Assembly (NCBI GenBank): GCA_950295325.1 | Contig: OX485805.1 | Span: 41,502,758-41,566,757, forward strand | Reading direction: 5' to 3' | Origin: Polytrichum commune | Lineage: Eukaryota; Streptophyta; Polytrichopsida; Polytrichales; Polytrichaceae | DNA: 64,000 nt | Shown: in pieces, positions 1-52,494 of the stretch | How the letters are laid out: each line of letters begins with the position of its first letter | How positions within the stretch are numbered: position 1 is the first letter of the stretch | Translations under genes and position numbers: made by a program | Notes under the pieces: generated by a model | Database searches by the model: none | The model's input: only the letters and a program-made list of their open reading frames with translations | Told to the model about the DNA's origin: nothing

Positions 1-80
1 ATATATTGTTTGGGTATATGCATAGATGTATGTCTATCTATGGATATTGCTAGATACATAGACCATACTCACAGGTGATA

Positions 81-320
81 TTTACAAACGCACGTTCGTA
101 AACTCTTAGCCATCACATGTGATTGAATCATTAATACAAATGCGTTCATTTGTGATTTACGAACGCGCGTTTGTAAACTCTCAATCACCATATATGTTTC
201 AACCAATACTATAAATGCGTTGATTTGTGATTTACGAACGTGCGTTTGTAAACTCTCAACCATCATCTATGTTTGAACCAATACTACAAATGCATTGATT
301 TGTGATTTGTGATTTATATT
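81..320. repeat. 75-bp tandem repeat carrying the 22-bp palindrome
   Basis: Three units start at 81, 156 and 231, exactly 75 bp apart; a fourth decayed one runs into 320. Each unit opens with a version of the palindrome TTTACGAACG-NN-CGTTCGTAAA (81-102, 156-177, 231-252), followed by an AT-rich spacer with a conserved tail before the next unit. The array stops at the outer end of the foldback-like element (321), so it is either an older array the element landed beside or a decayed outer part of it. Confidence 0.85.
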
Positions 321-722
321 TGTACCATAGGTTGGTTGAAGCTTAGAAACATTGGATCTGGATTCGGTTTGCGAAAACCACCTTTGACCAAAAACGTTAG
401 CTAGTCATAAGGATCCGAAAACTCCACTATAGGTTGTAGAAGGTTACAAATGCCAGCTCTAAGCTTATATTATGGAAATAACATCTAAAAGTTGGCCATT
501 CAGACCAAAAACGTGAGCTCGTAGGTAGTGTCCAAGACATATTTTTTAGCCTTAAACGGAAGTTTAAGGCGATCATACGTCAAAGGAGTTTTCTAGAGAT
601 GCACTAGGTTGGGAGGTGTTTTTGCAAGGCTTGGAAATGACTAGCAAGAAAAGAGTTAATGTAGCAAGGAAGGATTGCAAACACCCATCAACAATGGGCT
701 TTCATATATACGTACTATGCAG
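321..722 (+). repeat. Left unique arm of the foldback-like element
   Basis: This pairs with 4768-5170 in reverse orientation. Homology stays clear up to a shared segment reading ACAATGGGCTTTCATATATA followed by CGTACT near 718, after which each side enters its palindrome array. Confidence 0.85.
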
Positions 723-1240
723 CATTTGGTTGCTGCGCAGAAGTTTACGAAAATGTGGGCCGATGTTTATGAACGCCCGTTCGTAAATGTGCATCGAGGT
801 TTACGAACGCCCGTTCGTAAATGTGGGCCGAGGTTTACGAACGCACGTTCGTAAATGTGGGCCGAGGTTTACGAACGCACGTTCGTAACTGTGCAGCACT
901 TGGTTGCTGCGCAGAAGCTTACGAAAATGTAGGCCGATGTATACGAACGCCCGTTCGTAAATGTGTGCCGATGTTTACGAACGCACGTTCATAACTGTGC
1001 AGCACTTGGTTGCTGCAAAGAAGTGTACGAAAATGTGGGCCGAGGTTTACGAACGCCCGTTCGTAAATGTGCGCTGACGTTTACGAACGCACGTTCGTAA
1101 CTATGCAGCACTTAGTTGCTGCGCAGAAGTGTACGAAAATGTGGGCCGAGGTTTACGAACGGGCGTTCGTAAATGTGGCGGAGATTTACGAACGCCCGTT
1201 CGTAAATGTGGGCCGACGTTTACGAACGCACGTTCGTAAA
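718..1240. repeat. Left array of 22-bp palindromes (11 copies)
   Basis: Copies of TTTACGAACG-NN-CGTTCGTAAA start at 766, 800, 834, 868, 940, 974, 1046, 1080, 1152, 1185 and 1219. The two spacer bases vary (CC, CA, GG). Spacing is about 34 bp, interrupted by a second motif, GCAGCACTTGGTTGCTGC, near 718, 891, 1000 and 1104, which makes a higher-order unit of about 105-170 bp. A reading frame crosses the array only because the unit lacks stops in that frame; its protein is the same short repeat over and over and is not counted as a gene. Confidence 0.9.
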
Positions 1241-4203
1241 ACTCCGGAATACGCGGCGGTATATGCGGTGGATATACGTTGTACATACATGAAGTGTGTA
1301 GTGTGGACGTATAGAAATGTGATATTATGCGCGCACTCCTACAAGTCTCTAGAGGAGTCTCTAGAGCATGCCGCAAAAAAGAGCTATGGTGTGGGGGGGA
1401 AGACCTTTAAGTACTGCTCTAGGGCGATTCAAAATCCCTTGGATGCTCTTTAAAAAGCGGATTCCCGCCGCCTACCTTAACCTAACAATATGTCATTCTA
1501 TCCATGCGAAACATGTATGACGCTATGTATGGAACATGTATGGCATGCATGCAACATATTGAAAATATTAATGTCGCTCGCACACCTTAGGTGTTACCAA
1601 GGCCTCAGGATAGAAACATAAATACTATAATAGTCAAATGTTATTGAAATATGATGATGCTTAACATTAAATAAATGATTTGCGACCAAGTTATGAAATC
1701 CAAGTTTTTGGGCAATTGATACCTATATGTTACCAAGGTCTAAGTGATATATATATATACACATATATACAATGAGGTAGGAGTGGGTCAAAATTAGTTG
1801 TGGAGGCCCCTAAAATTGCATATATTATATGATTCACATCAAAACATGTCCAGAATATGCTCACTAAGTGTGTGGCCACCAATAAAAAGTCGGATTAATT
1901 TGGAATGGCTTGTAAGGTAGAGGAAGGATATGATATGAAACCATACCTAGGTATAATGTAGGTCTTAATTTAAGTGCAAACCTAGATGTGGAAAGATTGA
2001 ATTAATCCGGAATGTGTGGCAAGATTGAAATTAATTTGGAATGGTACATAAGGTAGAGTAAGCATATGAATTCAAAACATACCTAGGTCGAGTCACACTA
2101 ATTGCATGTTTTTGCATCCTACGAGAAGTAGGTGCATAACTAAAAGTATTCATTTAAAGTTGAGTCTTAAGACATGCATGTTAGAATAAGATTAAGTATG
2201 GACTGTGTGATCAAAATGCACTCAACATTATTAAGGTGAAAGAGGAAGAATTCCAAACTTCACTTTTGACATAAACCAAAGTTGTATCTCAAATCCAATT
2301 TTGAATCTTGAAATGACAATCGGCATGATTCTCAATAGTTGTTATTAACCGGATGAAGCAATATCCAATCCAACCAACATTGGTAGACCAGTTGGACATG
2401 CCCACATACCACAACATGGCCACATATTTTGAATATTGGTAAGATTAAAAGATTTAGGGATGTAGGGTTTAGGGTTTGGGGTTAGGGTTTGTGAAAGTTG
2501 TGCATGTCCGACAGTTAATACAATAGATTACACACACAAACGATATTGACTACTCAATAGCCCATATTGCACTCACTTAATTATGTAGAATGCACATTTT
2601 ATACTTGCCAAACATCTGATCACATGGCTCAAGTACACTTAGTTCAAGTTGAAGTTAAAGTTCAATGCACTATACAAATGTTAGTTCAAGTTGACACCTA
2701 ATTATATGAATTGATGACATGTTCGAAATTGAATTTCCCTCCACCTCTACTAAAATTAAGTTCACTCCCTCCCCCCAATCTCAAATTGTGTATTTTATGA
2801 AGCTAATAATGATTAGAGGAACTAATGAACAACTTGAAAGATATTTCATTCTTGAAAACATTATATTTCAAAACACCATATGAGCATCCTTGGGGTTGGA
2901 TTCTTCAACAAATTTCTACTAAATGATGTGCATTGTTCACTACAAATTTATACTCCCTATGTACCTAATGTTTACAAAAGAACCAAATGTATAGGGACTA
3001 ATAGAATGGGGAGAAAAAATTCATTTGTATTTATACTAAGCTATTCAAATCAATATGATAAACACCTATACTACATATACATAATACAAAACATGAATTA
3101 AGCATGCCTTCATTACTTACAAATTCTACTTTTATTTTCATGCAAGAGAGTCATCGAACGTTTTTCCATCCTAACAAGTATGGACAAGGTAGTCATATGA
3201 CTGCCTCCATAATATGACAACAATTCATGTATCGTAACTTGGATGAAACTAACACATTTCAATGGTAACAAATTCCCTCCCCGCCCCCACCCCTATCCCA
3301 TCCCATCCCATCCCATCCCATCCCATCCCATCCCCTCCCCACACCCCATCCCACCACATCCCAACCCTTCCCACGTGCAGGAGGCCACGTAGCAACGATA
3401 GGGAAACCCTAACGGCGTTGGCTACCTCCCCGCACCCCTTCTTCTCCTTTCATTGTCATTTGGAGCATAGAAAGAAGAAGCGGAACGCTAAGCACATGCG
3501 GAGCGGAGCTCTTGTCATTTCTTACTCATATATTTTCTTTGTTTTGTTGGCGCTCGTGTTTGAGAGTCGCAGATCTCTTTTGAGAGTTGCAAGTTTGCTA
3601 GTAGAGAGCTTGAGAGCTACAAACTTGAAAGTTGCATACACATAAGAGTTGTTGCAAGGGTATGTATGTAACGTGCGAGGGCTTAAGAGTGTGAGGGAGG
3701 AATGACTAATGTGAGGGTGCAGTAGATTGAATTTACAATTCTGAGGTTTTCGAAGTTTTTCACTAAATGAGGAAGCACAAGTTTTGGATGTATACCAATT
3801 CAACGTGCATAGTGTAATCCTCCTGAACTCACTTCCTTCACATTTTGAAATTTTTTTCATTGTTGAATTCCATGTGTTTTTTTCCATGTATGTTGAGCTT
3901 TGGCATGTTTTGTTTGCAAGCTTCCCCATGTTTTTCGATTTAGTGTTCTCTCACAACCTGAAACTCAATTTTGATTTCATTCGGTTGTTTCAATTTTTAT
4001 CGTTCTCAATTTTTATCTTCACTTGCAGTATGCAAAGGCACCAATTCAAGGTTGATAGGTATCAATCACAAACCAAAAGTGGCAAGATGCAATGGACAAA
4101 TTACTGATACATATCAACCACTCCATTATAGACCAATGCATATTTGTATTTGTTTATATATGAATATAAAAACCATATGTACATGCGTAAATACCGGAGC
4201 ATG
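1241..4203. other. Loop of the foldback-like element, no gene recognised
   Basis: About 3 kb of AT-rich DNA between the two palindrome arrays. It contains a degenerate plant-telomere-like run (about 2461-2490, TTTAGGG variants), a pyrimidine microsatellite of CCCAT units (about 3295-3340), then a short GC-rich stretch with a CACGTG G-box (3372-3377) and an AAACCCTAA telo-box (3404-3412), both common in plant promoters. Short open frames follow (3262-3645, 3784-4107), but none resembles a known protein. If the element ever carried a gene, this promoter-like stretch is where I would place its start. Confidence 0.5.
3295..3345 (+). repeat. CCCAT microsatellite
   Basis: Perfect to near-perfect CCCAT units lie in tandem, continuing as imperfect C-rich sequence to about 3370. 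It sits inside the loop of the foldback-like element, upstream of the G-box and telo-box. Confidence 0.85.
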
Positions 4204-4711
4204 TTTACGAACGGGCGTTCGTAAACTTCAGCGCAACAACCAAGTGCTGCACAGTTACGAACGTGCGTTCGTAAACTTCTGCGCAGCAGCCAAGTGCTGC
4301 ACAGTTAGTAAATGTACGCCGACTTTTACAAACGGGCGTTCGTAAACCTCGGCCCACATTTACGAACGGGCGTTCGTTAACCTCGGCCCACATTTACGAA
4401 CGGGCGTTCGTAAACCTCGGCCCACATTTTCGTAAACTTCTGCGCAACAACGAAGTGCTGCACAGTTAGTAAATGTGCGCCGACTTTTACGAACGGGCGT
4501 TCGTAAACCTCGGCCCACATTTTCGTAAACTTCTGCTCATCAACCAAGTGTTGCACTGTTACGAACGTGCGTTTGTAAACCTCGACGAGTATTTACAAAT
4601 GCGCGTTTGTAAACCTTGGCCAACAACAAAGGTTGCATATTTACGAACATGCAATTGTGAACTTCGGCGTAATAACCAAGGGCTGCATGTTTACAAATAC
4701 ACGCTCATAAA
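4204..4711. repeat. Right array of 22-bp palindromes (about 10 copies)
   Basis: Copies start at 4204, 4254, 4325, 4359, 4393, 4486, 4558, 4592, 4640 and 4690. The arrangement mirrors the left array, including the GCAGCACTTGG-type spacer motif in reverse. Copies near the loop are close to perfect, while those at 4592, 4640 and 4690, next to the unique arm, are degraded. Confidence 0.9.
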
Positions 4712-4767
4712 CCTTGGCTACATACAATGAAAATGTGCACCACCCCCCTGCTACAATAATCAATAGC

Positions 4768-5170
4768 GAATAGGAGTACGTATATATGAAAGCCCATTGT
4801 TAATGGGTGTTTGCAGTCCTTCCTTGCTACATTAATTATGTTGTTGCTAGTCATTTCCAAGCCTTGCAAAAACACCTCCCAACCTAGTGCATCTCTAGAA
4901 AACTCCTTTGACGTATGATCGCCTTAAACTTATGTTTAAGGCTTAAAAATATGTCTTGGACACTACCTACGAGCTCACGTTTTTGGTCTGAATGGCCAAC
5001 TTTTAGATGTTGTTTCCATAATATAAGCTTAGAGCTGGCATCTCTAACCTTCTACAACCTATAGTGGAGTTTTCGGGTCCTTATGACTAGCTGACGTTTT
5101 TGGTCAAAGGTGGTTTTCGCAAACCGAATCCAGATCCAACGTTTCTAAGCTTCAACCAACCTATGGTACA
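4768..5170 (-). repeat. Right unique arm of the foldback-like element
   Basis: Reverse complement of 321-722. The outermost matched bases are TGTACCATAG read inwards from 5170; the next base out does not match on the two sides. Confidence 0.85.
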
Positions 5171-6195
5171 TTTTTCAAGTCATTCTAACTATTTGCTCTA
5201 GACGTCTCCTATGAGTGTCACGTTCGCGCATACCCACCCTTTCTACTTTCTAATGCATTCTTTGTTCCTACATGACAAGTTGTCCAATGCACATTTTCAA
5301 TAACACCTTCAACACCTTTGTCTTGCCAACACTAAGGACTATGTTATCTTAGAAGGAGAGCAGTAATAGGAGAATGCCAACAATGAATCTACTCTTCAAA
5401 TCCCTCTTTCAACACTTTGTTGCTTGTTTTCCAAGACTGTTGTCCGTCTGGACTGCCTCACATTTCTAGGTCTAAACTTACAAGCATACACACCTTCTCT
5501 AAGAGTCTAAGCTATCTTCACATATGTGTACTAAGAGAGCCAAAAGGTTCTAGGACAATCTTTATATACCTCAAAACAACTACCTACTAGGTGGGTCAAC
5601 TTGGTAGGTTACCACCCTGTCAAAACACTGCAACTAGCTGTCCTCACGCGTTTTTGCCCTTTGTCCAATACATGACCAACTGGCACATTGAGGTCATAAA
5701 AAATGATCAACTAGTCAAAGAAATGCAATGCTATTTAATAACTTTGGACCAACAAGTCATTATCTGACCAACTAAATTATTAACACCAAATAATTACTAC
5801 TACTGAATAAATTGCTCAGTAGTAAAACAGTAAAGAACCAATTAGTGGACGTTTTAACAACTAATTGCATTAGGGACAAATTTGACGTCAACTAGTAAAC
5901 TAGCATTCTTTTGCCCTTTCGACAATTCGTGTCCAACTAGTCAGTTTTTGATGGGTTGGTTTACTATGAACATTTTATGTTCTTAAAACACGGTGCTAAC
6001 TTCTACCTTAACTTCTATCTTATCTATGTTTGTGCAAATAAACGAAACCACTATACATATTTGCAAACACACATTCGTAAAAATACGTAATGTTGATTTA
6101 CACATTACACATTACACTGATTTACGAACGGTTGTTCGTAAATATGCTACCAAAATCTACTTTAACAATTGAATGTGGATATACTTTATATTGTG
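5171..6195. other. AT-rich region, no gene; two palindrome copies at its end
   Basis: No coding frame of note. Two solo copies of the 22-bp palindrome lie at 6060-6081 (degraded) and 6121-6142 (both halves largely intact), about 0.9 kb beyond the foldback-like element. Confidence 0.7.
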
Positions 6196-6490
6196 CATAA
6201 AGTATGGTTTTGGAGAACACGGTGCCCATTTTCAAGTTCCTCATCTGTGATCTCCCAAGCCCTTGCCTCGTTCTCGGCCAAGAAGTATGCGATGAGCTAA
6301 TTGACAAGAATGGTGTGCCAATGCCCAAGTTGGTGGTCGAGGCGGAGGGCAACATTTCCTCAAGGTCTTGAGGTCCAGGTTGTGGCTAGAAGTCCCCCTA
6401 TTGGAGGGAGTCCCCCACGGGAGCTGGCCAACTCCAGAGAACACCCTCCTCATCGACGACAACACCGCCAAGAGCCTTCTTTGTCCCCTC
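6196..6490 (+). pseudogene. FCP1/NLI-type (HAD) phosphatase-like gene fragment, frameshifted
   Basis: Three consecutive pieces in different frames together resemble the second half of an FCP1-homology domain. The first piece (about 6196-6300) reads ...FSAKKYAMS then a stop. The next frame (to about 6360) reads CDELIDKNGVPMPKL. The third (about 6350-6490) reads WLEVP...GSWPTPENTLLIDDNTAKSLL. The segment ENTLLIDDNTAKSLL fits the conserved IDD motif near the end of the domain in plant FCP/NLI-type phosphatases. At least two frameshifts and no visible start make this a broken fragment, perhaps captured by a transposon, since palindromes of the foldback type lie just upstream. The family is recognised from motifs by eye only. 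Confidence 0.4.
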
Positions 6491-6584
6491 CTATTCTTTC
6501 ACCGTTGCTCTCATTTTCTTGCATCTGCATGTTATGCACTTTACGAGCGCCCATCCCAAACCGCCCCTCCTTAATTTACCCACT

Positions 6585-7005
6585 CCACTCTGTCTATGAT
6601 ATTGTTTCACAGGTCGCTCCACGCTCGTTTGGTGGCCGACCCTCCTTGACTTCTTCATTGGAGACGCACACAACTCAAGGTTGCATCTTCCGAGTCCGAT
6701 CGTTGTTTGGCCCTCTGGAGAAGTGCAAGACATTCTCTCTTGCAGATGCCTTTGTATTCCACTACAATACCACTTCGTACAATTCGGGAGCGCATTTGGA
6801 CATATTGAAGAACGACACATATTCGAGGCCAGTCAACAAACTTGGCTATAGTTGCGGGCCGGAGATTTTCAAAGCTATAGAGGCCATTGGAGCATTACAG
6901 AGAGAAGCCACCGTAAAAGATATGGACATGGCCGCGAGAAAAAATATAGTGGGACGTACTAAGGTACAAATACCTATAACCGATAACTTAAGCATTTCAG
7001 CATAG
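6585..7005 (+). other. Open frame of unknown nature after the phosphatase fragment
   Basis: About 140 codons are open, ending in ...IPITDNLSISA and a stop at 7003-7005. The composition looks protein-like (for example KLGYSCGPEIFKAIEAIGA), but I recognise no family. It may be a further piece of the captured or decayed gene upstream, or chance. Confidence 0.25.
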
Positions 7006-7707
7006 CATATCTCGGGTTATCGAGAAGGAGTTTATTTTTGTGCGTAGGAAAATAAGGTTCATGAAGAATGAGCTTTTTTTCAAAATTGATTAAATAAAAT
7101 TAGAATTACTACAATTTTTTTTGTTCGAAAGTTGGTTTGAGCCCATAACCAACATATAGCTTCACCCATGACCAACAACAACTATTTTGACAACTTCCCC
7201 TCCACGAAGTCATATGGTCCTCACGTTTTATATATAAAAATAACGACTTCTAGTAAAGCCATGTGCGTTTATGCATAACTCTACTTATCGGTGATGGGTG
7301 CGTTATCGGTTATGGGTGTCTATACCTTAGTGGGACTATAAACGCCTACGGACTCCCTAAATGTGTGTAGGGGTAGAGCATAGTGCTTGGTTATCCATTC
7401 TATTTGAAGGTCTTCAAGACATTAATGGTATTTCCATTATGTTTGTATTTCAAACCCGTTGAATAGATTCAATTTCCAATCATTCTCCACATCTTCCTTT
7501 CCATTAGCAACAATTTGTCATTTTATACACATATGTTTTCATGTATGGTTCATTTTTTTGTTCACTTTGATGCATTTATGTTGATGATTATATCCAATGT
7601 TATACGTATGGTATTTTAATGTTGTTAACATTGGCTCAAATTTGAAAACCACGTCCTTGAATAGTCTCAAAATCATCAAAAAGTCTCCGATTACTGAATA
7701 TAGTGTT
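7006..7707. other. AT-rich intergenic stretch, nothing recognised
   Basis: No coding frame, structural RNA or repeat border seen. Confidence 0.6.
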
Positions 7708-9155
7708 TTCATTTAAAGGGGAGCCTGGGAGAGGATGGCTCATAATACTAGTAAGCACTTGGATCCCCTTTGTGGAGGTCGGAGTGGATAAAGCGTATGC
7801 AGTGTGTACGTTTGACAAATTTCATTTGACGTTCAACTTGAAATCTAAAGTGTCATGTGACATTTTCAAAAACGAAAATGAATGTCAATCGACATCCACA
7901 TTTTCTTGTAAAATGTCATTTCAATGTCACGTGTCTAGTAGTATGTGTCATTTCAATTTTTTTAAATGTCAATTGATGCGTGGTTTTTTTGTTGACAAGT
8001 CAAACTACATGTCAAAATCTAAATTGTGCGTGTCAATTGATGTGCATTTCATTTCTATGCAATTTTTTGCGTGTCAAATGCCAAAAACTTGCAATTCTTT
8101 TGTCACACATATACACTGAGTGTATGTTTGTAATATGAAGTGGTGTTCACAAGGCCATGGCTATAGGAGACAGGGGGAATTATCGTATGTGAGCGTACCT
8201 CTCATTCATTCAATATAAAAGCCTTGAAATATAGCAATACCATTACCACTTTAGCACTTATTAAATTATTTAAAGGAAAACCACATATTTGGAAATGGTA
8301 AATTTAAAATATAAAAAATTAATATGGGAAATTTGATTTTCCTTTGAATCCGGGATTGTCGAATTTAAAAGAGAAATGACAATGAATAGTTGCCTACAAA
8401 TGGCCAAGTGGTAAAGGTACTACATCAATCTGTGCACTATGTCCCTTTCAATGGTAAGTCACAAAAAGCATGACCTCAATGCTAATGAGGGTTTGGTAAT
8501 GTTTTTGACTTCCAAGTTTATTCCATGCTTTATCAACGGATCCACTTCGAAAATGAAATCCCAGTCAATTGCTTATTTACTCAATGGATGTGAACATATA
8601 TATTGGATTTTGGACTTTGAAGATGAAGTGCACTCAATATGGGTTATATGGTCAAGCGACCTTCAAGAATGCAAGGGCAATTTTATTTTTCAAAGTCGGA
8701 CAGAGCGGGCAGGGAGCATGGACTTCATCCCGGCAGTGAAGCGACCGTGCCCGGCGAGGAACCCAACCCTGGCCATATGTGATCTAGCCTGATGCGTATT
8801 TTGAGAGGAGATGCTCAAAGTATAAGATGGGGGGGAGGGGTCTGTAACTTAATGTGCAAGTCCTTGCCCAATCCATGAGATTTAGTTTTTGACCTCGATA
8901 AAATTTGGAACAAGTGTGAATGGGAGTAGCTCATACATGTGGAAGAAATGATGAAGTAGAGTGAGAAGCATAGATAATGGGGGGGGGGAGGTTTAACTTA
9001 GGAGGTCGAGAGAACAAGGTGCGTCCTCGTGATCTTATCGCTCATGTTTTTCTTATAGCTCATGGTTGGGAAGAACTAGCTTTTGAAAAATACACATCAC
9101 TCTATTTTGGTGGAAGTTGCACCCAAGGGGAATTCTAACCTGTTTACCACATAGC
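7708..9155 (+). repeat. Repeat R1, copy 1
   Basis: This matches 28267-29430 in the same direction from TTCATTTAAAGGGGAGC to ACCACATAGC, with scattered substitutions and small indels. The main length difference is a 319-bp MITE at 7800-8118 that copy 2 lacks. An internal section (about 8440-8720) also occurs inverted at about 16545-16895 and 24440-24764. A frame open over 8439-8792 corresponds to frames in those copies (shared words SHK.H.L.ANEG, LTSK, EVHSIW, LQECK), so this section may descend from coding DNA, but I cannot name the protein. Confidence 0.85.
7800..8118 (+). mobile_element. hAT-type MITE with 8-bp target duplication
   Basis: The 319-bp insertion has terminal inverted repeats: CAGTGTGTACGTTTGACAAA at the left, and the complement of CAGTGTATATGTGTGACAAA at the right. 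Flanks are AGCGTATG (7792-7799) and AGTGTATG (8119-8126), an 8-bp duplication with one difference. The R1 copy at 28351-28358 has the site once (AGTGTGTG) and no insertion, which is the empty site. Eight-bp duplications and CA...TG ends are typical of hAT elements. A partial inverted copy lies at 17745-17842. Confidence 0.8.
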
Positions 9156-10362
9156 TTCGAGTTTGTTCAAGGATTAAGCACCCACACAATCAAGAATTAG
9201 ATCATAGAATTATGTGACTTATCTTCAAATACCCTATGCGACCATAAGCAGGCTGGCTGTGAACAATTTGTTTTGACCCCTTTGGCACTTGTTTTGGTAG
9301 TTTTGAGATTGTTTCAACTACTTCTCTTGTTCATGTTGGGTTCCACATTGTCATGCCACGTGGATAATTTTGATTCAACAAAGTTAGCTATCTTTGGATG
9401 AATTCAAATGTGGGAGTGTTCTCTCGACAAGTTTACAGTGGAACCCGTCCTCGGATGCCTACTTGACATTTGTGAGCTCTGTGGTTAAGGGGCAACATAT
9501 CTTAAACATGGTTTTCTTGTTGATCTCCATGCGCAAATGATTCCAATTGATCTAAAAATTTGCATGACACGCAAACATACAAGATCCTTACCATCCAATG
9601 TTGGATTTTTGAGCTTCACATGTCTTGGTGGTGTAAATTCATGTGGAAGGTGCGCAGTTGTGACACCATTGCCTCAAAATTTGTAAAGCTTCCCAAAAAA
9701 TCACAAAATAATGGTTCCAAGATTTGTGAGCAAATATTAGTAGGTGTGTTTCCCTTTTTTTTTATGAGGGTAACTTTTTTCATCTGGAGATGATTTGAGT
9801 GGAGGTTTGATAAAAAGAACCAACTCCAATCTAATTTCTAAACTATTGCCCCCCAAGTCACTATATTTATATCCTACATAACAAAGTTTAATCATTTAAA
9901 ATTTGGACTTTGAAGTAATCACCTCTAATCTGCAAACATCTATACGGTTAGATTTGTCAAAGAAACTCTAGAACTTCAAATATAATCACTGAAATTGATA
10001 TCACATTATTTGGGTAGATTTGATTAAAATTGGGAATGGGAAGTTAGGGGGTTGACAAATGGTTTTGAAACACACACTACAAATGTCCAATATTCTTTGG
10101 AAAGGTCATGAAATTAATAGATAAATTGATTATGTGACCTCTTCAAAACTCCATACAAAAGCATTTATTGAACACAAGAAAATTAAACTATATATGTCTA
10201 GACTAACTTCATCTCCCATCCACATAATCACCTCATGATCATCTTCCATAATGATTGAGTACACTACCTAGCCAAGTATAAAATCATTACTAAAATCAAA
10301 ATGCAAATTCAAAAGTCTTAAATACATCTACAATGAAATTCAAGTACTATCTACCATCAATT
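9156..10362. other. Intergenic region downstream of the ROCO gene, nothing recognised
   Basis: AT-rich. Any 3' untranslated region of the minus-strand ROCO gene would lie in its right part; no clear polyadenylation signal stood out. Confidence 0.5.
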
Positions 10363-16200: not shown

Positions 16201-16544
16201 ACAACATTCATGGATGCCTGCCACTAGACTACTACTACTACATACACAGCCCCTTGAAGCAGGCGGTTGAAGAAAGATTGGCAGACGTGGGGAGAATGCC
16301 GACTGACTTACAGTCAACGATGACTCTTCCGAATTCAGGAAGGGCACACAGCATTTCCGAAGCTCGTCCTTGAGATGATGCTTCCCCTGAAGTGAAAAAT
16401 CATACAAAATTCATTATTAAATTTCTTGGCCGCCAATAGAGGGCCTCAATAAAGACGGTGCACAGTTACCCATGGGGGACGTTAAAGTTCCCCCACGAAC
16501 TTATAGGGGACGTAGATTCGGGCAGGGGCAGCCGCCCGCCCAGC

Positions 16545-16895
16545 CATAAATTTCAGATTTTTAGGATCCGATCGAAAATTGTTGCGAGCCTGTCCGACTT
16601 CAAAAAAACCATTGTCCTTGCATTCTTGAAGACCACTTATCCATATATCCCATATTGAGTGCACTTCACTTTCAAGGTTCAAAATCCACTATATATGTTT
16701 ACTTTCATTGAGTAAATAAACAATTGACTCGGATTTCATTTTCAAATTGAAACAGCAATCAAAGTATGTAAATAACTTGGAAGTCAAAAATATTATAAAA
16801 CCCTCATTAGCACCGAGGTTATGATTTTTGTGACTTGCCATTGCAAGGGTCTTTGTCATTATTAAAACTTCAGTTGTATTGGGTTGAAATGACAC
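16545..16895 (-). repeat. Inverted R1-type section in block A
   Basis: Reading the minus strand gives the same sequence as about 8440-8720. The minus frame is open apart from a TAG where the R1 copy at 8.6 kb has a tyrosine codon. Downstream of it comes EVHSIWDIWISGLQECKDN. The product is unrecognised. Confidence 0.7.
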
Positions 16896-17029
16896 GTATT
16901 ACTAGGCTAATTAAGTATTATAAACTGCAGCTCAAGTATCCAGAAAGCATAACCCAGAACATTAGGAGAACTTCCCATACTCACTTACATACTTAAGTTC
17001 AGCCTTATCCTGTAATTTTCTTTGTAGTC

Positions 17030-17148
17030 AAGAAGGCTCTACAGCTGAGACGGTGATGGGAGAGAGGTGGTGGAAGGTAAGTACAAGGCCGACAAGACCA
17101 TTGTTCATGGTTTCTTGCGGATGTATTTCCACAATTGTTTTGTGCATG
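17030..17148 (+). pseudogene. Class III peroxidase first-exon fragment (block A)
   Basis: The translation reads AETVMGE, then, after a 2-base shift, KADKTIVHGFLRMYFHNCFV. Class III plant peroxidases have ...AE.IV...V......D.T...LLRMHFHDCFV at this point, with the arginine and histidine of the distal haem pocket in LRM.FH. Here R and H are kept, but the aspartate after H is asparagine. The end lacks the splice donor still seen in block B. A frameshift and lack of any other peroxidase exon make it non-functional. Identified from motif only. Confidence 0.6.
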
Positions 17149-17422
17149 CATGTGAATGAACAATCTGCCCCAGCAGATCTCAAAAAATGATGTTTTGGCT
17201 GGTTAAATAATGGGTTAATTATGAGGCGTCTAAGTTTAACACGAGGGTGATTTGAGGTAGACTTCGAAAAGTGCATAGATCCCCTCCAAATTGAGTATAA
17301 TGTACAATGTACAATTCACAATGCATGAAATGAAGCTAGAGTGGAAGCATAAATGTTGTTGGGTCTATGCTCTGAATGCCTCAATTTGAATTGGCACACA
17401 AATTGGCCTAAATTATGCAACC

Positions 17423-17641
17423 ATGGCACTCATTCCATCAAGTACATCTATTTGTGAGAGAGGATTCTCCAAACAAAATGCAATCAAAAGCCACTTGCAC
17501 AATAGGTTGAACTTGAAGACCCTTGATGCTCTTATGCGGGTCTCTCCTTGTGGGCTTGAAGTGGATGCAATGGATTGGGCTACAATGGCCAACATTTGGA
17601 AAAACATGCGAGACCGAAAGATCCTTACGCTCGATTCATAG
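17423..17641 (+). pseudogene. hAT transposase C-terminal (dimerisation) remnant, block A
   Basis: A 72-codon frame reads PSSTSICERGFSKQNAIKSH..NRL...LDALMRVS. The pattern of P.S....ER.FS..N.IK....NRL followed by LM.(V/I)S is the hAT family dimerisation region found at the transposase C-terminus. No catalytic part is present in the block. The copy at 25293-25511 differs at only a few bases. Confidence 0.8.
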
Positions 17642-17744
17642 TGTTTTTTTGTTTCAAATCAAGATTATATTTTGATTCTTCAAAACATTAGGTTTTCTAA
17701 AATATTGTGTAACCCAAAATTGAGGTGACATTTAAGAATAGAAC

Positions 17745-24241: not shown

Positions 24242-24439
24242 CTTGAGATGATGCTTCCCCCGAAGTCAAAAATCATACAAAATTCATTTTAAAGTTCCTG
24301 GCCGCCAATAGGGGGCCTCCATAAAGACAGTGCACTGTTACCGATGGGGGAAGTTAAAGTTCCCCCCACAAACTTATAGGGGAGGTAGATTTGGGCAGGG
24401 GTAGCCGCCTGGCTAGAAATTTCAGATTTTCTGGACCTG

Positions 24440-24764
24440 ACCGAAAATTGTTGCCCGTCCGCTCGGCTTCAAAAAAACCATTGTCCTTGCATTCTTGAAG
24501 ACCACTCATCCACAAATCCCATATTGAGTGCACTTCACCTTCAAGGTCCAAAATCCATTATATATGTTTACTTTCATTAAGTAAATAAACAATTGACTCG
24601 GATTTCATTTTCAAATTGAAATTGCCATTAAAGTATGTAAAGAACTTGGAAGTCAAAAATATTATAAAACCCTCATTAGCACCGAGGTTATGATTTTTGT
24701 GACTTGCCATTGCAAGGGTCTTTGTCATTATTAAAACTTCAGTTGTATTGGGTTGAAATGACAC
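24440..24764 (-). repeat. Inverted R1-type section in block B
   Basis: Same as 16545-16895 with a few substitutions; the minus frame again has the stop after ESKHI and then EVHSIWDLWMSGLQECKDN. See R1 at 7708-9155. Confidence 0.7.
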
Positions 24765-24892
24765 GTATTACTAGGTTACTTAAGTACTATAAATTGCAAC
24801 TCAAGTATCCGGAAAGCATAACCCATAACATTAGGAGAACTTCCCACACTCACTTACATACTTAAGTTCAGCCTTATCCTGTAATTTTCTTT

Positions 24893-25015
24893 TGCAATCT
24901 GGAAGGCTCTACAACTGAGACGGTGATGAGAGAGGTGTTGGAAGGTAAGTACAAGGCCGACAAGACCATTGTTTATGGTCTCTTGTGGATGTATTTCCAC
25001 AATTGTTTTGTGCAG
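24893..25015 (+). pseudogene. Class III peroxidase first-exon fragment (block B)
   Basis: An uninterrupted frame reads TETVMREVLEGKYKADKTIV then YGLLWMYFHNCFVQ and meets GTATGT, a good splice donor. In class III peroxidases the first intron commonly falls just after FHDCFVQ, so the exon and its donor seem to have been taken together from genomic DNA rather than from a transcript. Tryptophan replaces the distal arginine and asparagine the aspartate, so the active site is lost. The exon lies between transposon parts. Family identification is by motif only. Confidence 0.6.
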
Positions 25016-25292
25016 GTATGTGAATGAACAATCTGCCCCAACATATCTCGAAAAGTGATGTTTTGGCTGGTTAAATAGTGGGCTAATTATGAGGCGTCTG
25101 AGCTTGACATGAGGATGATTTGAGGTAGACTTTGTAAAGTGCATAGATCCCCTCCAAATTGAGTATAATGTACAATGTACAATTCACAATGCATGAAATG
25201 AAGCTAGATTGGAAGCATTATTGTTGTTGGGTTTGTGATTTCAATCCCATCAATTTGAATTGGCACACAAATTAGCCTAAACTTATGCAACC

Positions 25293-25511
25293 ATGGCACT
25301 CATTCCATCAAGTACATCTATTTGTGAGAGAGGATTCTCCAAACAAAATGCAATCAAAAGCCACTTGCACAATAGGTTGAACTTGAAGACCCTTGATGCT
25401 CTTATGCGGGTCTCTCCTTGTGGGCTTGAAGTGGATGCAATGGATTGGGCTACAATGGCTAACATTTGGAAAAACATGCGAGACCGAAGGATCCTTACAC
25501 TCGATTCATAG
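25293..25511 (+). pseudogene. hAT transposase C-terminal remnant, block B
   Basis: 72 codons, nearly identical to 17423-17641 (one residue changed near the end). Too few differences to tell selection from recent duplication. Confidence 0.8.
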
Positions 25512-25588
25512 TTTTTTGTTTCAAATCAAGATTATATTTTGATTCTTCAAAACATTAGGTTTTCTAAAATATTGTGTAACCCAAAATT

Positions 25589-28266
25589 TCCGATGGTAAA
25601 TATACGTTCCATCACATTCCTTAAGTGTCCGTCAAATAGAGTATCCCAACTTGGAAGATTTGCTATGGGTTGTGTGAGTGTGTGGTTGGGGGGGGGGGGT
25701 CAAGCAAATCCCACAATGCGACTCTGAAGTGCATGGTGATACACCATCCAAGAGCTTCCTACCAACTGTGAATGACGGCACTTGATACAATATTTGGCAT
25801 GTCCCCCAAATTTGAACTCCTGGTCTTACTCAAGAGAATAAACATGCAAATCATCTCGGTACTAGGAATTAGGGTGAGAGGGAATCAATCCTCAGGGAGT
25901 GCACTATTCATTAAAACCAAAGCATCACGTGCGTGCATGCCCCTTATTAAAATACCCATGTATACATTTTATTTTTGCTAAAATCAAGCAATATACTTAC
26001 AAATCTCATTGCTTCAAAATACATTTTCATACGTACACAAGGGTCCAAAAACAAATACAAAAATTGTATATAACATGTGTACAAATGTTTGGAAATGCAA
26101 AAATATGGCCCTATTATATGTATAATATCAAATCATGGATTTTTAGTTATAAAGTCGTTACTTAGTGGATGAAAAAACACATGATTCTTGGTCCAGGTCT
26201 GACTTGAACGCGTAAACGCGTAAATGCGTACTTTACATATATTTTTCTATAGCCTCATGTATATCTACTTCTTGCTTAATAGCAATATGTCTCTTGTATG
26301 TACATTTTGTACATGCTTGTTTTAAATAATACCCCTTTTGTGCACCCACGTGTATAAATACAGTACTTGAACAGTGCACTCCCTGGGAATCAATCGTATA
26401 CGAGTATAGTATCTCTCATCCATCTAACATAAAAACTTGATTCCTCTATAGATTCGTTGTTGATTCATCTCAAATGACCCCCAAGTAGATTAATTTCGGG
26501 TCTTTGAAGCTAATTTCAGTGTCAAATCAATTAAACAAATGTAATCTCCATGTTGCAAACTATTTTAGGGCTTTTGTGTTGGATGAATGAGAACACACTT
26601 ATATACAGAATTCCCTCTCTTCGGGAGTTTACAGATAACTCCTACCATTTGTATCATTTTGTACCATAACATTATAGAGTTCAGTATGTACAGTGCTTGG
26701 GCTGGAAATAAGCCAAAATTTTATTGTTATTATACTTGGTATATTCACACAACATAGCACTACATTGACAAATTCATGCTAAAGACTTGGGTGAGGCAAT
26801 GTAGTGATATTATTAGAATGGAACAATTAATATCGGTTGAATAATGCTATGTGCCATTTTTGTTTGTGAATTTTATGTAATAAGTGACTCCAATCAAAAC
26901 AAAGTAGCCAAGATCGTAGACGTGCACTACTACCTAGTAGTTACCAACATATCATTATAGCATGGATATTTTATAGTGAATGTTGCATAGCATTATCCAA
27001 TTGAGTTTGTACGCTGGGTGGAACCGTGAATAAGCCAAATTCTAGTTGGAATTATACTTTGTTTATTCTCTCAGCACAACATGTTTAATCCTGGTAAACT
27101 CAGGTGACCCAATGTCATTATTATTATTATTAAAACAGAATAATTGCTAGGATTTAAATGATATTATGTGATCTTCCTTCCTCTATATATATAGTGTTTG
27201 TGATGAGAGGCATCAATATGAGCGCATCAGGCAAAGGGTTAGGCTATATGGGGGTCGAACGGCAACTTCATACATACACAATAGAATTAATTGATAAGTA
27301 TCGGGATCGATTGGCATCACATTGTCTTAATGATCCCTTCTCTGAGTGTAACCAGAAAACCTTGGAGGGCTTCTTTGAGTTTTAGATGCCGACATGGTTT
27401 ATCGTTGTATATCTAAGAATCTTCTCGTTATCTTTGCCATCTATATGCACATGCCTCTCTTTGCTCCTCTCACCACTTGTGTACTCCTTAAATAAAATCA
27501 AACGTAAGAAAAAAAAATTTGTCAAAGTTTTTTGCCCCAAAATAAAGAAAATGGACTTCCTTCCTTAGTTTTATTTTTGGCATACTAACACAAGTGTTGA
27601 AGCGGCAAATATGGAGATTCCATCGGAAAACTTAAGTTCGTCCCCATTTTGATGACTTTTCAATTAACTTTCAAGCACATGGAGGACCGACCCCTAGGTA
27701 CAGATGAACCGGTTGAAGTTCAAGACCTTGGTAAAATTAGAGGAATAAAGAGAAAATGCCTCAAATGAATAAAAGAAAACCTGAAAATATGGACTCATAT
27801 ATTTGTAAGTAGTGCGAGTTTGGACATTCGTGAGGCCCGAGTTGGGTGGGGCGAAAGACAAGAATGGAAGGAAAAGTGTTCTCCTTTAATTTGCTCTTGG
27901 CAACAACACTCGAGGAAGGGAAGAAAATTAAAGAAGAAGAAGAAAACAAACGGACTCACTCAGTTAGGTTAGTTGGCTGCATGAAGCAACCCAGCATGCC
28001 TGCATGAGTGCCATTGATGAATGTTTTGTTTTTTGTTTTTTTTTTGGAGACAGAAGGCCGACAGGCCAGCGCCAAAGCACAGGAGGCAGTTGATCACCTG
28101 GCAAGTTTTCCGTCAAGTAGAGTGAAGATTTCACAGTCGGTATTTGAACCGCCAACCTCTTCCTTGAGATTTGGGTATCTCCCCACCATCATCTGGTAGT
28201 TTAAGGTCATCTCGGACCATTGACGAATGTATTGTTCTCGTGAGCGAAATTTCAAAAGCCCAGAGG
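25589..28266. other. Intergenic, no gene recognised
   Basis: AT-rich. A poly-G run lies near 25688-25700. Around 28050-28190 a frame is open but unremarkable. Confidence 0.5.
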
Positions 28267-29430
28267 TTCATTTAAAGGGGAGCTTGGGAAAGGATGACCC
28301 ATAATATTAGTAAGCACTCGGATCTCCTTTGTGGCGGTCGGAGTGGATAAAGTGTGTGTTTGTAGTAATATGAAGTGGTGTTCGCAAGGCCATGGCTATA
28401 GGAGACAAGGGGAAATTATCATATGTGAGTATACCTCTCATTCATCCAACATTAAAGCCTTGAAATACCATAATACCTTTACCACTTTGGCATTGATTAA
28501 CCTAATTTAAGGAAAACCACAAATTTGGAAATTTTCTTTTAAATTGATAAAAATTAGTATGGGAAAGCTCATTTTTCTTTAAATTCGGAATTGGCAAACC
28601 CAAAAAGCCAAATTACAATCAATAGTTGCCTACAAATGGCCAAGTGAAAAAGGTGCTACAGTCATATGTCTGCTATGTCCCTTTCAATGGTAAGTCACAA
28701 GAATCATAACCGCAATCCTAATGAGGGTTTTGTAATATTTTTGACTTCCAAGTTAATTACATGTTTTTATTGACGGTTTCACTTCGAAAGTGAAATCCCA
28801 ATCAATTGTTTATTTACTCAATGGAAGTGAACATATATATTGGATTATGAACCTTTGAGATGAAGTGCACTCAATATGGGTTATATGGACAATATGGGTT
28901 ATATGGTCAAGCGACCTTCAAGAATGCACGGCCAATATTATTTTTCAAAGTCAGGCGGAGCGGGCGGGGACCATGGGCTTCATCTGGGCAGTGAAGCAGG
29001 CGTGCCCAGCGAGGGACCCAACCTTGGGCAGATGTGAACTAGCCCAGGGCATATTTTGAGAGGAGATGCTCAAAGTATAAGATGGGGAGGTGTGTAACTT
29101 AATGTGCGAGTCCCTACCCAATCCATGAGATTTAGGTTTTGACCTCGATAAGTTTTGGAACAAGTGTGAATGGGAGTAGCTCATACATGTGGAAGTAATG
29201 ATGAAGTAGAGTGAGAGGGCATAGATGATGGGGAGGGGGGGGGGGAGGAGGTTTAACCAAGGGTGTCGAGAGAACAAGGTGCATCGTCGTGATCTTAAGG
29301 ACGGGCTTGCTCATCACTTGTATTTTTCTTATAGCTCATGGTTGGGAAGAACAAGCTTTTGAAGAATACACGCACTCTATTTTGGTGGACGTTGCACCCA
29401 AGGGGAATTCTAACCTCTTTACCACATAGC
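28267..29430 (+). repeat. Repeat R1, copy 2 (empty site for the MITE)
   Basis: Same direction as 7708-9155, without the 319-bp MITE. The target AGTGTGTG lies at 28351-28358. It contains the R1 internal section at about 28675-28965 and a poly-G run near 29231. The frame seen in copy 1 is broken here. Confidence 0.85.
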
Positions 29431-50865: not shown

Positions 50866-51500
50866 GTAAGTAAATTAGTGAGTAAGTTCCGAAGTCACCC
50901 TGGCCTGCTACAAAGTAAACCACCTTTGCTAATTATCCTTACCTCCGATCGAACGCAGAGTAGCAGAGTTTGAAAGGTGGCAGGTGTCTGCTGCTAGCTT
51001 AGCTCCTAAGTTAGACGCAATTCCGCACCAAAACAGGTGACGAAAAGCTCAAAAGGCGTGGCCGTGATCACGCTGTTGAACGAGTCCGCGGGGACTTGTG
51101 ATGACTGTAAGTAAGTTAAGTAGGTTGCGATCGACGAAGGGGCCGGAGGGGAGGGAGCTGGAGGTTGGAAAGTGGCTATGGCGGGAGGCTGCACCACAGG
51201 CGAAGGCGCCCGCTTCCCCCCCTTGACTGTGTCAACCTTTCTCACTTCTCTAGCATAGCAAAGCATAGCGAGTCGAGCTCCTTTACCCTAGAATCACCCG
51301 CTTCCCTAGATCCTCGAATCTACAGTTCTTGTTCAGAATCAACTGGGCCCTGAGGATCTCAAAACAAACATACTGTAATTGGTGCACTTCTCTAGCATAG
51401 AATAACTGGTCGCTCATTCAAGTGCAGGGCACTTCCAACAACTCTCTTGCATGTTTCCTATCCACGCGTAGGATAATCCATTCATAACCTATATAGTTTA

Positions 51501-51715
51501 AGGTAAGTATACCCAAAACCATCACCCAACCTAAAATCACCAGCACCATGTACCACTTGCATACATGTGGAAGCAACAAATGTATGCATGTTGTACATAG
51601 TAGTGGTGGTGGTTATACCCAAAACCATCACCAAACCTAAAACCACCGCCACTATGTATTTTAGATTTATTATGCGTGTGATACATAATGGTGGTTTTAG
51701 GTTCGGTTTTGGGTA
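51501..51715. repeat. Hairpin-forming insertion in unit 1
   Basis: ACCCAAAACCATCACC followed by AACCTAAAACCACC occurs twice on the plus strand and once inverted, and can fold back on itself. Later units (about 53440, 53780) run through this point without it. Confidence 0.7.
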
Positions 51716-52030
51716 TCTTTGATCCACTCTCCTCTCTATGTTATGTATTACGTAATCAACTCCCTTGAGAATCTCAAAACTTATCTTATGCACATGGACA
51801 CTTTTCGAAATACTTACTCACTTCTCTAGGATAGCATAGCATAGCATAGTAGCAGATGCAGTGAGTTGAGTTCCTTAACCCTGGAACCAACATGCTTCCT
51901 AGATCCTCGAATCTACATTTCTTGTCTAGAATAAGTTGATCCCTCATTCAAGTGGAGGGCACTTCCAACAACTCTCTTGCATGTTTCCTATCCACACGTA
52001 TGATAATCCATTCATAACCTATATAGTTTA

Positions 52031-52253
52031 AGGTAGGTATACCCAAAACCATCACCCGACCTAAAATCACCAGCACCTTGTACCACTTGCATACATGTGG
52101 AAACAACAAATGTATGCATGTTGTACATAGTAGTGGTGGTGGTTATACCCAAAACCATCACCAAACCTAAAACCACCGCCACTATGCATTTTAGATTTAC
52201 TATGCGTGTGATACATAATGGTGGTTTTAGGTTCGGTGATGGTTTTGGGTGTC
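52031..52253. repeat. Hairpin-forming insertion in unit 2
   Basis: Nearly identical to 51501-51715 but with a fuller inverted half (GGTTCGGTGATGGTTTTGGG). The minus-strand frames across both copies (51482-51793, 52012-52329) are similar only because the DNA is duplicated. Confidence 0.7.
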
Positions 52254-52494
52254 TTTGATCCACTCTCCTCTCTATGTTATGTATTACATAATCAACTCTC
52301 TTGAGAATCTCAAAACTTATCTTATGCACATGGACACTTTTCGAAATACTTACTCACTTCTCTAGGATAGCATAGCATAGCATAGTAGCAGATGGAGTGA
52401 GTCGAGTTCCTTAACCCTAGAACCAACATGCTCCCTAGATCCTCGAATCTACATTTCTTGTCCGGAATCAATTGGGCTCTTGAGGACCTCATAA

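Follow-up and report, generated by a model that had tools for sequence, protein, structure and literature searches.

A palindrome array shared by a non-autonomous Polytrichum commune transposon and its gene-bearing relative: a putative target of an element-encoded regulator

We analysed a 64,000-nucleotide stretch of the Polytrichum commune genome (contig OX485805.1, positions 41,502,758 to 41,566,757 of the forward strand; hereafter the window), the left part of which holds a large inverted repeat (321-5170) with inner arrays of a 22-bp palindrome. The repeat sits inside a DNA transposon of 9,418 bp, here called E (C3:41501047-41510464), which fills window positions 1-7707 and extends a further 1,711 bp to the left of the window. 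E has a larger relative, B, that carries a transposase and a second gene, gene 2. The lineage has conserved the palindrome, which clusters in the promoter region between the two genes and in the three introns of gene 2 and is missing from the ends. E itself is a terminal-inverted-repeat transposon of known type; the interest lies in the palindrome system.

Element E and its internal inverted repeat

The arms of the repeat, predicted to pair over about 400 bp, are 396 bp long and 96% complementary (321-716 against 4775-5170). They are dispersed, again as predicted: a first look at the genome (407.8 Mb in 64 contigs, seven of these 42-78 Mb) gave 191 arm candidates, and all 40 that were scored match at 96% identity or more. 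Twenty loci were fetched around a part of these 40 matches. In the 17 fetched loci with two arms and in the window (18 copies), the sequence adjoining the arms on the outside is the same. More than 900 bp of the left flank of locus L023 is common to 18 of the 20 loci, L023 counted; L027 holds 591 bp of it before an interruption, and L017 was read from the opposite side. The arms end 2.0 kb (left) and 2.5 kb (right) inside the true ends of E. The original prediction of a foldback-like element was right about mobility and wrong about the class, because the arms are internal: the long inverted repeats of a foldback transposon form its ends, and here the flanks beyond both arms are common to the copies.

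Comparing full copies for exact ends and target duplications, as the original prediction had proposed, located both. The right end of E is exact, reading ...TCTCCGATTACYGAATATAGTGTT, with one further base different in L018, and the DNA beyond it differs in all ten sequences compared (window counted). The left end, AACACTATATTCGTTAATCGGAGACTTT, was located via two further stretches and then recognised in 19 of 19 copies examined. The terminal AACACTATATTCG is present at all 19 left ends and, inverted, at the 16 right ends found, with one changed base in three of these (window, L015 and L018). Both ends were available for 16 E copies, and 12 of these are flanked by an exact 4-bp target-site duplication (TSD; TTCA in the window copy). 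The set leaves out L017 and L027 as well as L010, L022 and L026, whose right ends were not available. Terminal inverted repeats and a constant 4-bp TSD make both E and B cut-and-paste DNA transposons of the terminal-inverted-repeat type. Two other assignments were rejected. A Helitron, considered from the flanks, is ruled out by the terminal inverted repeats and the TSDs; a CACTA element was suggested by a TAGTG end, whereas TSDs appear with an AACACTA start and are 4 bp long. A search with the left 600 bp of E, in which the best 40 of 953 candidates were scored, returned 38 copies at 97% identity or more, two at 84% and 82%, and three 34-base fragments; such copy counts are lower bounds.

At three mismatches or fewer, the palindrome TTTACGAACG-NN-CGTTCGTAAA occurs 23 times in the window, against none in 100 shuffles. 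The figure of 10-11 palindromes per arm that had been predicted holds on the left (11) and is too high on the right (8), and the predicted span of 321-5170 fits the arms, with further palindromes outside it at 81, 156, 231 and 6121. Across 17 E copies the inner arrays range from 3 to 14 sites on the left and from 8 to 31 on the right; tandem arrays of this kind would grow and shrink via slippage or unequal exchange. The two arms differ by 3.3% within a copy, compared with 2.1% (left) and 2.5% (right) between copies on the same side. Because the within-copy difference is the larger, the arms were duplicated before E spread and are not being homogenised; gene conversion between them, also considered, is unsupported by these figures.

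Individual E copies differ in other respects as well. A 366-bp stretch of the window copy (6962-7327), with imperfect inverted ends by eye, is not in the aligned right parts of L016, L018, L020, L021, L023, L024, L025 and L028, and looks like a private insertion of the miniature inverted-repeat transposable element type. Window positions 6429-6799 are missing from L023, L024, L025 and L028, which marks a deletion subfamily of E. The core of E includes a telomere-like GGGTTTAGGG-type stretch (window 2461-2492). L019 (C2:17185370) and L020 (C2:17139372) are E copies 46 kb apart in opposite orientation, with TSDs that do not match. TAAT is the right flank of one and the left flank of the other, and the second flank pair is unmatched; the arrangement is possibly an inversion between the copies. 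The left flank of L019 also lies within element-like DNA (L038).

The gene-bearing relative B

Inserted between the arms of the E copy at L017 is a second element with the same ends as E. This element, B, is 16,111 bp long (its far end was reached via three more stretches) and is flanked by the TSD TAGT. A second copy, B2 (16,215 bp, TSD ACAT), is 98.3% identical to B across 16,009 aligned bases. The copy with a transposase that had been envisaged for the inverted repeat was not found in E; it is this gene-bearing relative that carries one. The B transposase lies on the minus strand adjoining the left end, in two overlapping frames of 636 and 540 codons, and the 540-codon frame matches Pfam DUF7869 (E=5.8e-40). 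Gene 2 is divergent from it, with about 5 kb of inter-gene region between the two, and comprises four exons of 432, 442, 478 and 251 codons (about 1,600), separated by three GT...AG introns, all in phase 0. Its start was set at the ATG after a TTGCAG, and an additional 5′ intron is possible. The last exon encodes a NIF/FCP1-like phosphatase domain (E=1.5e-16). Pfam gave no support for a methyltransferase motif that inspection by eye had suggested in exon 2/3.

Between B and B2, gene 2 has accumulated 46 synonymous and 27 non-synonymous changes over 1,077 and 3,723 sites, a rate ratio of about 0.17. Exon by exon (1-4) the counts are 9/5, 13/14, 16/7 and 8/1, and exon 1 of B2 has a one-base length difference from that of B. 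These exon changes support purifying selection on gene 2, and with it the gene model and a function. The transposase frames, compared with the intron not removed, give 8/13 and 6/16 synonymous/non-synonymous changes, and constraint is less clear there. Both genes recur in the genome: the best 80 of 1,903 transposase candidates were scored and all match at 92% or more (57 of the 80 without stops), and the best 97 of 1,087 gene 2 candidates all match at 87% or more (69 of the 97 without stops), falling into two groups at 94-100% and 87-89%. A scored gene 2 match lies within 15 kb of 58 of the 80 scored transposase matches, mostly at 8.0-8.7 kb, against 0.57 at random. DUF7869 is abundant in the host genome, where the best 150 of 1,492 candidates were scored and form several frame-length groups, other groups having open frames of 692, 502, 677 and 539 residues, and it was found in none of 14 control genomes. 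In viral contigs, the transposase piece matched no stretch and none of 12 pattern matches to the gene 2 piece was confirmed. Adjoining one E copy, L048 607-999 (minus strand) contains part of a DUF7869 transposase that is more distant, with 57% identity over 132 amino acids.

E is homologous to B at E positions 1-318, 412-644, 2930-5599 (in pieces), 7915-8596 (in two pieces) and 9059-9418, with 65-78% identity; the transposase of B and the greater part of its gene 2 are missing from E. Among the longer frames of E, five gave no Pfam match above cut-off, and the longest found none in PDB at E<=0.1. As E corresponds to the ends and the middle of B and carries a phosphatase remnant, yet is short of these coding parts, its best explanation is deletion from a B-like ancestor; L058 is an older, intermediate form in which transposase remnants are retained. 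We have very little doubt about element E, this derivation or the conservation of the motif. The arms have no counterpart in B, where just one 12-base chance match was seen. As palindromes are frequent in B and the arms absent, the palindrome array would predate the 396-bp inverted repeat and outrank it in importance, the repeat being a secondary duplication added later in the E lineage.

Distribution of the palindrome in the lineage

B contains 30 palindromes at four mismatches or fewer, 16 of which are perfect. At six mismatches or fewer, E has 36 sites and B has 32, against Markov means of 0.3 and 0.4 (20 simulations each). At the stricter threshold, 18 B sites lie in the inter-gene region, a shared promoter region, nine in introns, two in exon 3 and one at the edge of a transposase frame. 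The three introns hold two, two and five sites, and the pairs are packed into short introns of 121 and 140 bp. Exons 1, 2 and 4 and both termini contain no site at four mismatches or fewer, and none falls within 2 kb of either end. A profile over the 32 B sites is nearly invariant at ACGAACG-NN-CGTTCGT, and the flanks of these sites are near random except for an A and a T at two adjoining positions. The non-element DNA fetched, 117.9 kb with 56.3 kb contributed by the window, has no site at three mismatches or fewer; L001-L008 were excluded from this set as they overlap other loci or surround further arm copies.

A diverged subfamily, sampled as two stretches from each of four copies, retains 7-11 sites per stretch at six mismatches or fewer, and its matches to B are short and mostly 68-80% identical, with one at 88%. 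The outer bases of its palindromes tend to change in matched pairs (TTT/AAA, TAT/ATA, AAT/ATT and GAT/ATC): of 49 distinct sites, 41 have a complementary second outward pair (27.2 expected) and 33 a complementary third (24.7 expected).

The 18 aligned E cores differ by 2.0% on average. Transitions per consensus site in these cores amount to 0.29 at CG, 0.19 at CHG and 0.15 at CHH, against 0.026 at A/T sites. Because this C-to-T excess is found in all contexts, in the manner of plant-type scars, the E copies have probably been methylated. The observed/expected CG ratio is 0.89 in E (0.70 with the palindromes masked) and 0.96 in B, against 0.49 for the window outside E; CG depletion is weaker in E and B than in their surroundings, for which youth alone could be an explanation.

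Table 1 Features of E in the window (positions of the window; strand as given).
Feature	Position	Strand	Remarks
E, part in window	1..7707	+	non-autonomous transposon; left end C3:41501047 (L029:8048)
Left 75-bp-unit array	81..252	.	palindromes at 81, 156, 231; further sites left of window
Left arm, internal inverted repeat	321..716	+	396 bp
Left inner palindrome array	766..1240	.	11 sites at <=4 mismatches
Non-coding core	1241..4203	.	largely matched, in pieces within window 1219-3888, by B inter-gene region
Right inner palindrome array	4204..4613	.	8 sites at <=4 mismatches; lowest among 17 copies compared
Right arm, internal inverted repeat	4775..5170	-	396 bp
Solitary palindrome, right of right arm	6121..6142	.	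1 mismatch
NIF/FCP1-like phosphatase exon remnant	6204..6475	+	74% DNA identity to B exon
Remnant of B 3′ region	6505..6885	+	76% identity
Right terminal region common with B	7348..7707	+	76% identity
Right terminal inverted repeat	7678..7707	-	reads inward AACACTATATTCAGTAATCGGAGACTTT
Target-site duplication TTCA	7708..7711	.	partner directly left of left end, outside window

Elsewhere in the window, other dispersed or tandem duplicated blocks pair 16536-17650 with 24405-25520, 8172-8966 with 28408-29216 and 51407-52236 with 51937-52474. In L056, an open frame outside the elements (J 27217-27900) resembles, by eye, the TIR domain of a resistance-type protein.

Putative function and relation to known systems

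The palindromes are probably protein-bound regulatory sites. A dimeric DNA-binding protein acting on chromatin or transcription explains them better than a role as transposition sites, because the site is symmetric and nearly invariant, lies in the promoter region and the introns, and is absent from the ends. Gene 2, as the second conserved gene seen, is the natural candidate for the binder. In the model we favour, each palindrome would be bound by a symmetric dimer of a protein that the element encodes, with gene 2 as its most likely source. This protein would coat the non-coding DNA of its own family and keep the elements open or active despite host silencing, and the E copies, which retain the sites, could likewise be opened and then moved in trans. 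We put the probability of the overall model, a dimer-site array for an element-encoded anti-silencing regulator, at roughly 0.55. That gene 2 binds the motif, and that binding counters silencing, are steps that we infer, and to anti-silencing by gene 2 specifically we would give not quite even odds. The fullest version is distinctly tentative: that the DUF7869 (Sola-like) lineage evolved its own sequence-specific anti-silencing independently of the VANDAL transposons, with a gene 2 protein of about 1,600 residues (a possible ParB/GmrSD-like nucleotide-binding segment and a C-terminal domain resembling phosphatases of the RNA polymerase II C-terminal domain) that would load on the palindrome in the promoter region and in every gene 2 intron, holding the element and its non-autonomous relatives transcriptionally open.

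Several observations weigh against this model. Gene 2 has no confident DNA-binding domain, and its NIF exon alone matches a Pfam family above cut-off: exon 1 weakly matches GmrSD_N (E=0.022; 15.3 bits, cut-off 33.2) and DUF6551 (E=0.25, below cut-off), exon 2 weakly matches N-SET (E=0.07-0.15), and exon 3 weakly matches HAUS-augmin3 (E=0.0011; 18.9 bits, cut-off 29.4), possibly because of a coiled coil. For exon 1 a PDB search gave nothing at E<=10, and exons 1 and 2 have no PHROGs or NCBIfam match at E<=1. Full protection by a protein would not leave the C-to-T excess seen in E. A matching TSD is missing from four of the 16 E copies (L016, L019, L020 and L021). The matched outer-base changes were counted in four related copies of the diverged subfamily, which means that shuffling exaggerates their weight; the same test is not significant in B alone or in E alone. 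Finally, the palindromes could serve the transposase instead.

As to exon 1 of gene 2, the whole piece has no profile match at E<=1. It holds an IIDGQHS stretch, and GmrSD_N and DUF6551 presumably both belong to the ParB/Srx-like fold group; from these sub-cut-off matches a ParB/Srx-like segment is possible.

A role in transposition, with the palindromes binding the transposase or an accessory protein in the service of excision or synapsis, seems to us improbable, though not negligibly so. The subterminal repeats of En/Spm-type elements are binding sites for transposition proteins, and here too short-motif arrays lie near both genes and in the non-autonomous E, whose copies, needing cis sites only, retain many palindromes. 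Their placement argues the other way: at four mismatches or fewer, the first site is 935 bp (E) and 3,858 bp (B) from the left ends, and the last is 1.6 kb (E) and 2.4 kb (B) from the right ends, while at six mismatches one extra degenerate site appears 1.2 kb (E) and 0.8 kb (B) from the right ends. Palindromes in all three gene 2 introns are likewise unexpected for a transposition site.

The palindromes might instead act as hairpins, whether as cruciform DNA, as intron or untranslated-region RNA or, through the arms of E, as double-stranded RNA, with effects on splicing, replication or small RNAs. The perfect symmetry, the matched outer-base changes, the sites in every gene 2 intron and the long arms of E are all in keeping with this. 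Selection for pairing only, however, would permit the inner sequence to drift, and it is nearly invariant; the matched changes are significant at the second and third outward positions only, and they equally fit a symmetric dimer site or template-switching repair of imperfect palindromes. We regard this explanation as clearly unlikely. Similarly little credence goes to passive, satellite-like expansion without function, in which the arrays would be alike through recent origin and palindrome correction. Array size does vary freely (left 3-14, right 8-31 in the 17 copies) and the E copies are young, with a core divergence of 2.0%, but many B sites stand in unrelated single-copy spacers, and sites persist in the diverged subfamily although its spacers have diverged. 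Sites are moreover concentrated in introns and the promoter region, and each retains four CG pairs even though transitions in the E core are most frequent at CG cytosines. An independent foldback transposon at 321-5170, nested in a larger repeat, is extremely improbable: the arms are 96% complementary and ATTT flanks both arm ends in 16 of 18 copies, but no copy was found outside the E context among the loci fetched, the arm-enclosed sequence matches the inter-gene region of B, and ATTT is not retained in L009 and L013.

A literature search, with subscription papers mostly outside its scope, gave no title, among the matches listed, that describes a system like the dimer-site array proposed here, which is no proof of its being unpublished. 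DUF7869 is not named in the papers searched, and the half-site letters gave no transposon paper among the matches listed. The case also shows how an eye-catching inverted repeat may mislead; here it is the motif that is conserved, not the fold. With its sharp definition, dozens of sites per element and placement in introns, the motif lends itself to direct tests of target recognition and spreading.

Foldback elements have long terminal inverted repeats with tandem sub-repeats; E shares the long inverted repeats and the tandem sub-repeats, but its inverted repeats are internal. CACTA (EnSpm) elements begin with CACTA and usually have a 3-bp TSD. The ends of E include the letters CACTA and E also has short-motif arrays, yet it starts with AACACTA and has a 4-bp TSD, its arrays are not subterminal, and the transposase of B is of the DUF7869 type. 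The IIDGQHS of gene 2 and a palindromic DNA partner present in many copies recall ParB-parS and DGQHR proteins, from which the lineage differs in that gene 2 has no significant match and belongs to a eukaryotic transposon with no partition context.

DUF7869 is, we assume, the Sola transposase, and the B transposase is recognised here as Pfam DUF7869 only. Sola elements, in the accessible parts of their description, have a DDD transposase, a 4-bp TSD and terminal inverted repeats, and some exceed 15 kb (PMC10741241); they are also reported from the moss Physcomitrella (PMC10741241; PMC9033089). E and B likewise have a 4-bp TSD and terminal inverted repeats, and B is 16 kb long, so that in these respects the Sola description fits. 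The palindrome arrays and the NIF-phosphatase gene of B, in contrast, do not appear in those parts of the Sola description (PMC10741241).

In function, the model resembles VANC. According to two reports, this protein, encoded by VANDAL transposons, binds to short non-coding motifs that often stand in tandem arrays, and strips methylation from transposons of its own family (PMC5735166; PMC10398659). The E/B lineage likewise has a short motif repeated in the non-coding regions of its own transposon family, partly in tandem arrays, and B carries a second protein gene, which may work alike. The differences are considerable. VANDALs belong to the Arabidopsis Mutator-like superfamily, whereas E and B have a 4-bp TSD and, in B, DUF7869. 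The VANC motif is the nine-base YAGTATTAY (PMC5735166; PMC10398659), compared with the 22-bp palindrome here. Gene 2 has a NIF phosphatase domain and sites in its introns, and its binding and demethylation are putative. If the model is correct, motif-directed, transposon-encoded protection from silencing is not peculiar to the VANDALs of Arabidopsis, and the same strategy arose in a superfamily unrelated to theirs, which uses another protein and a symmetric target.

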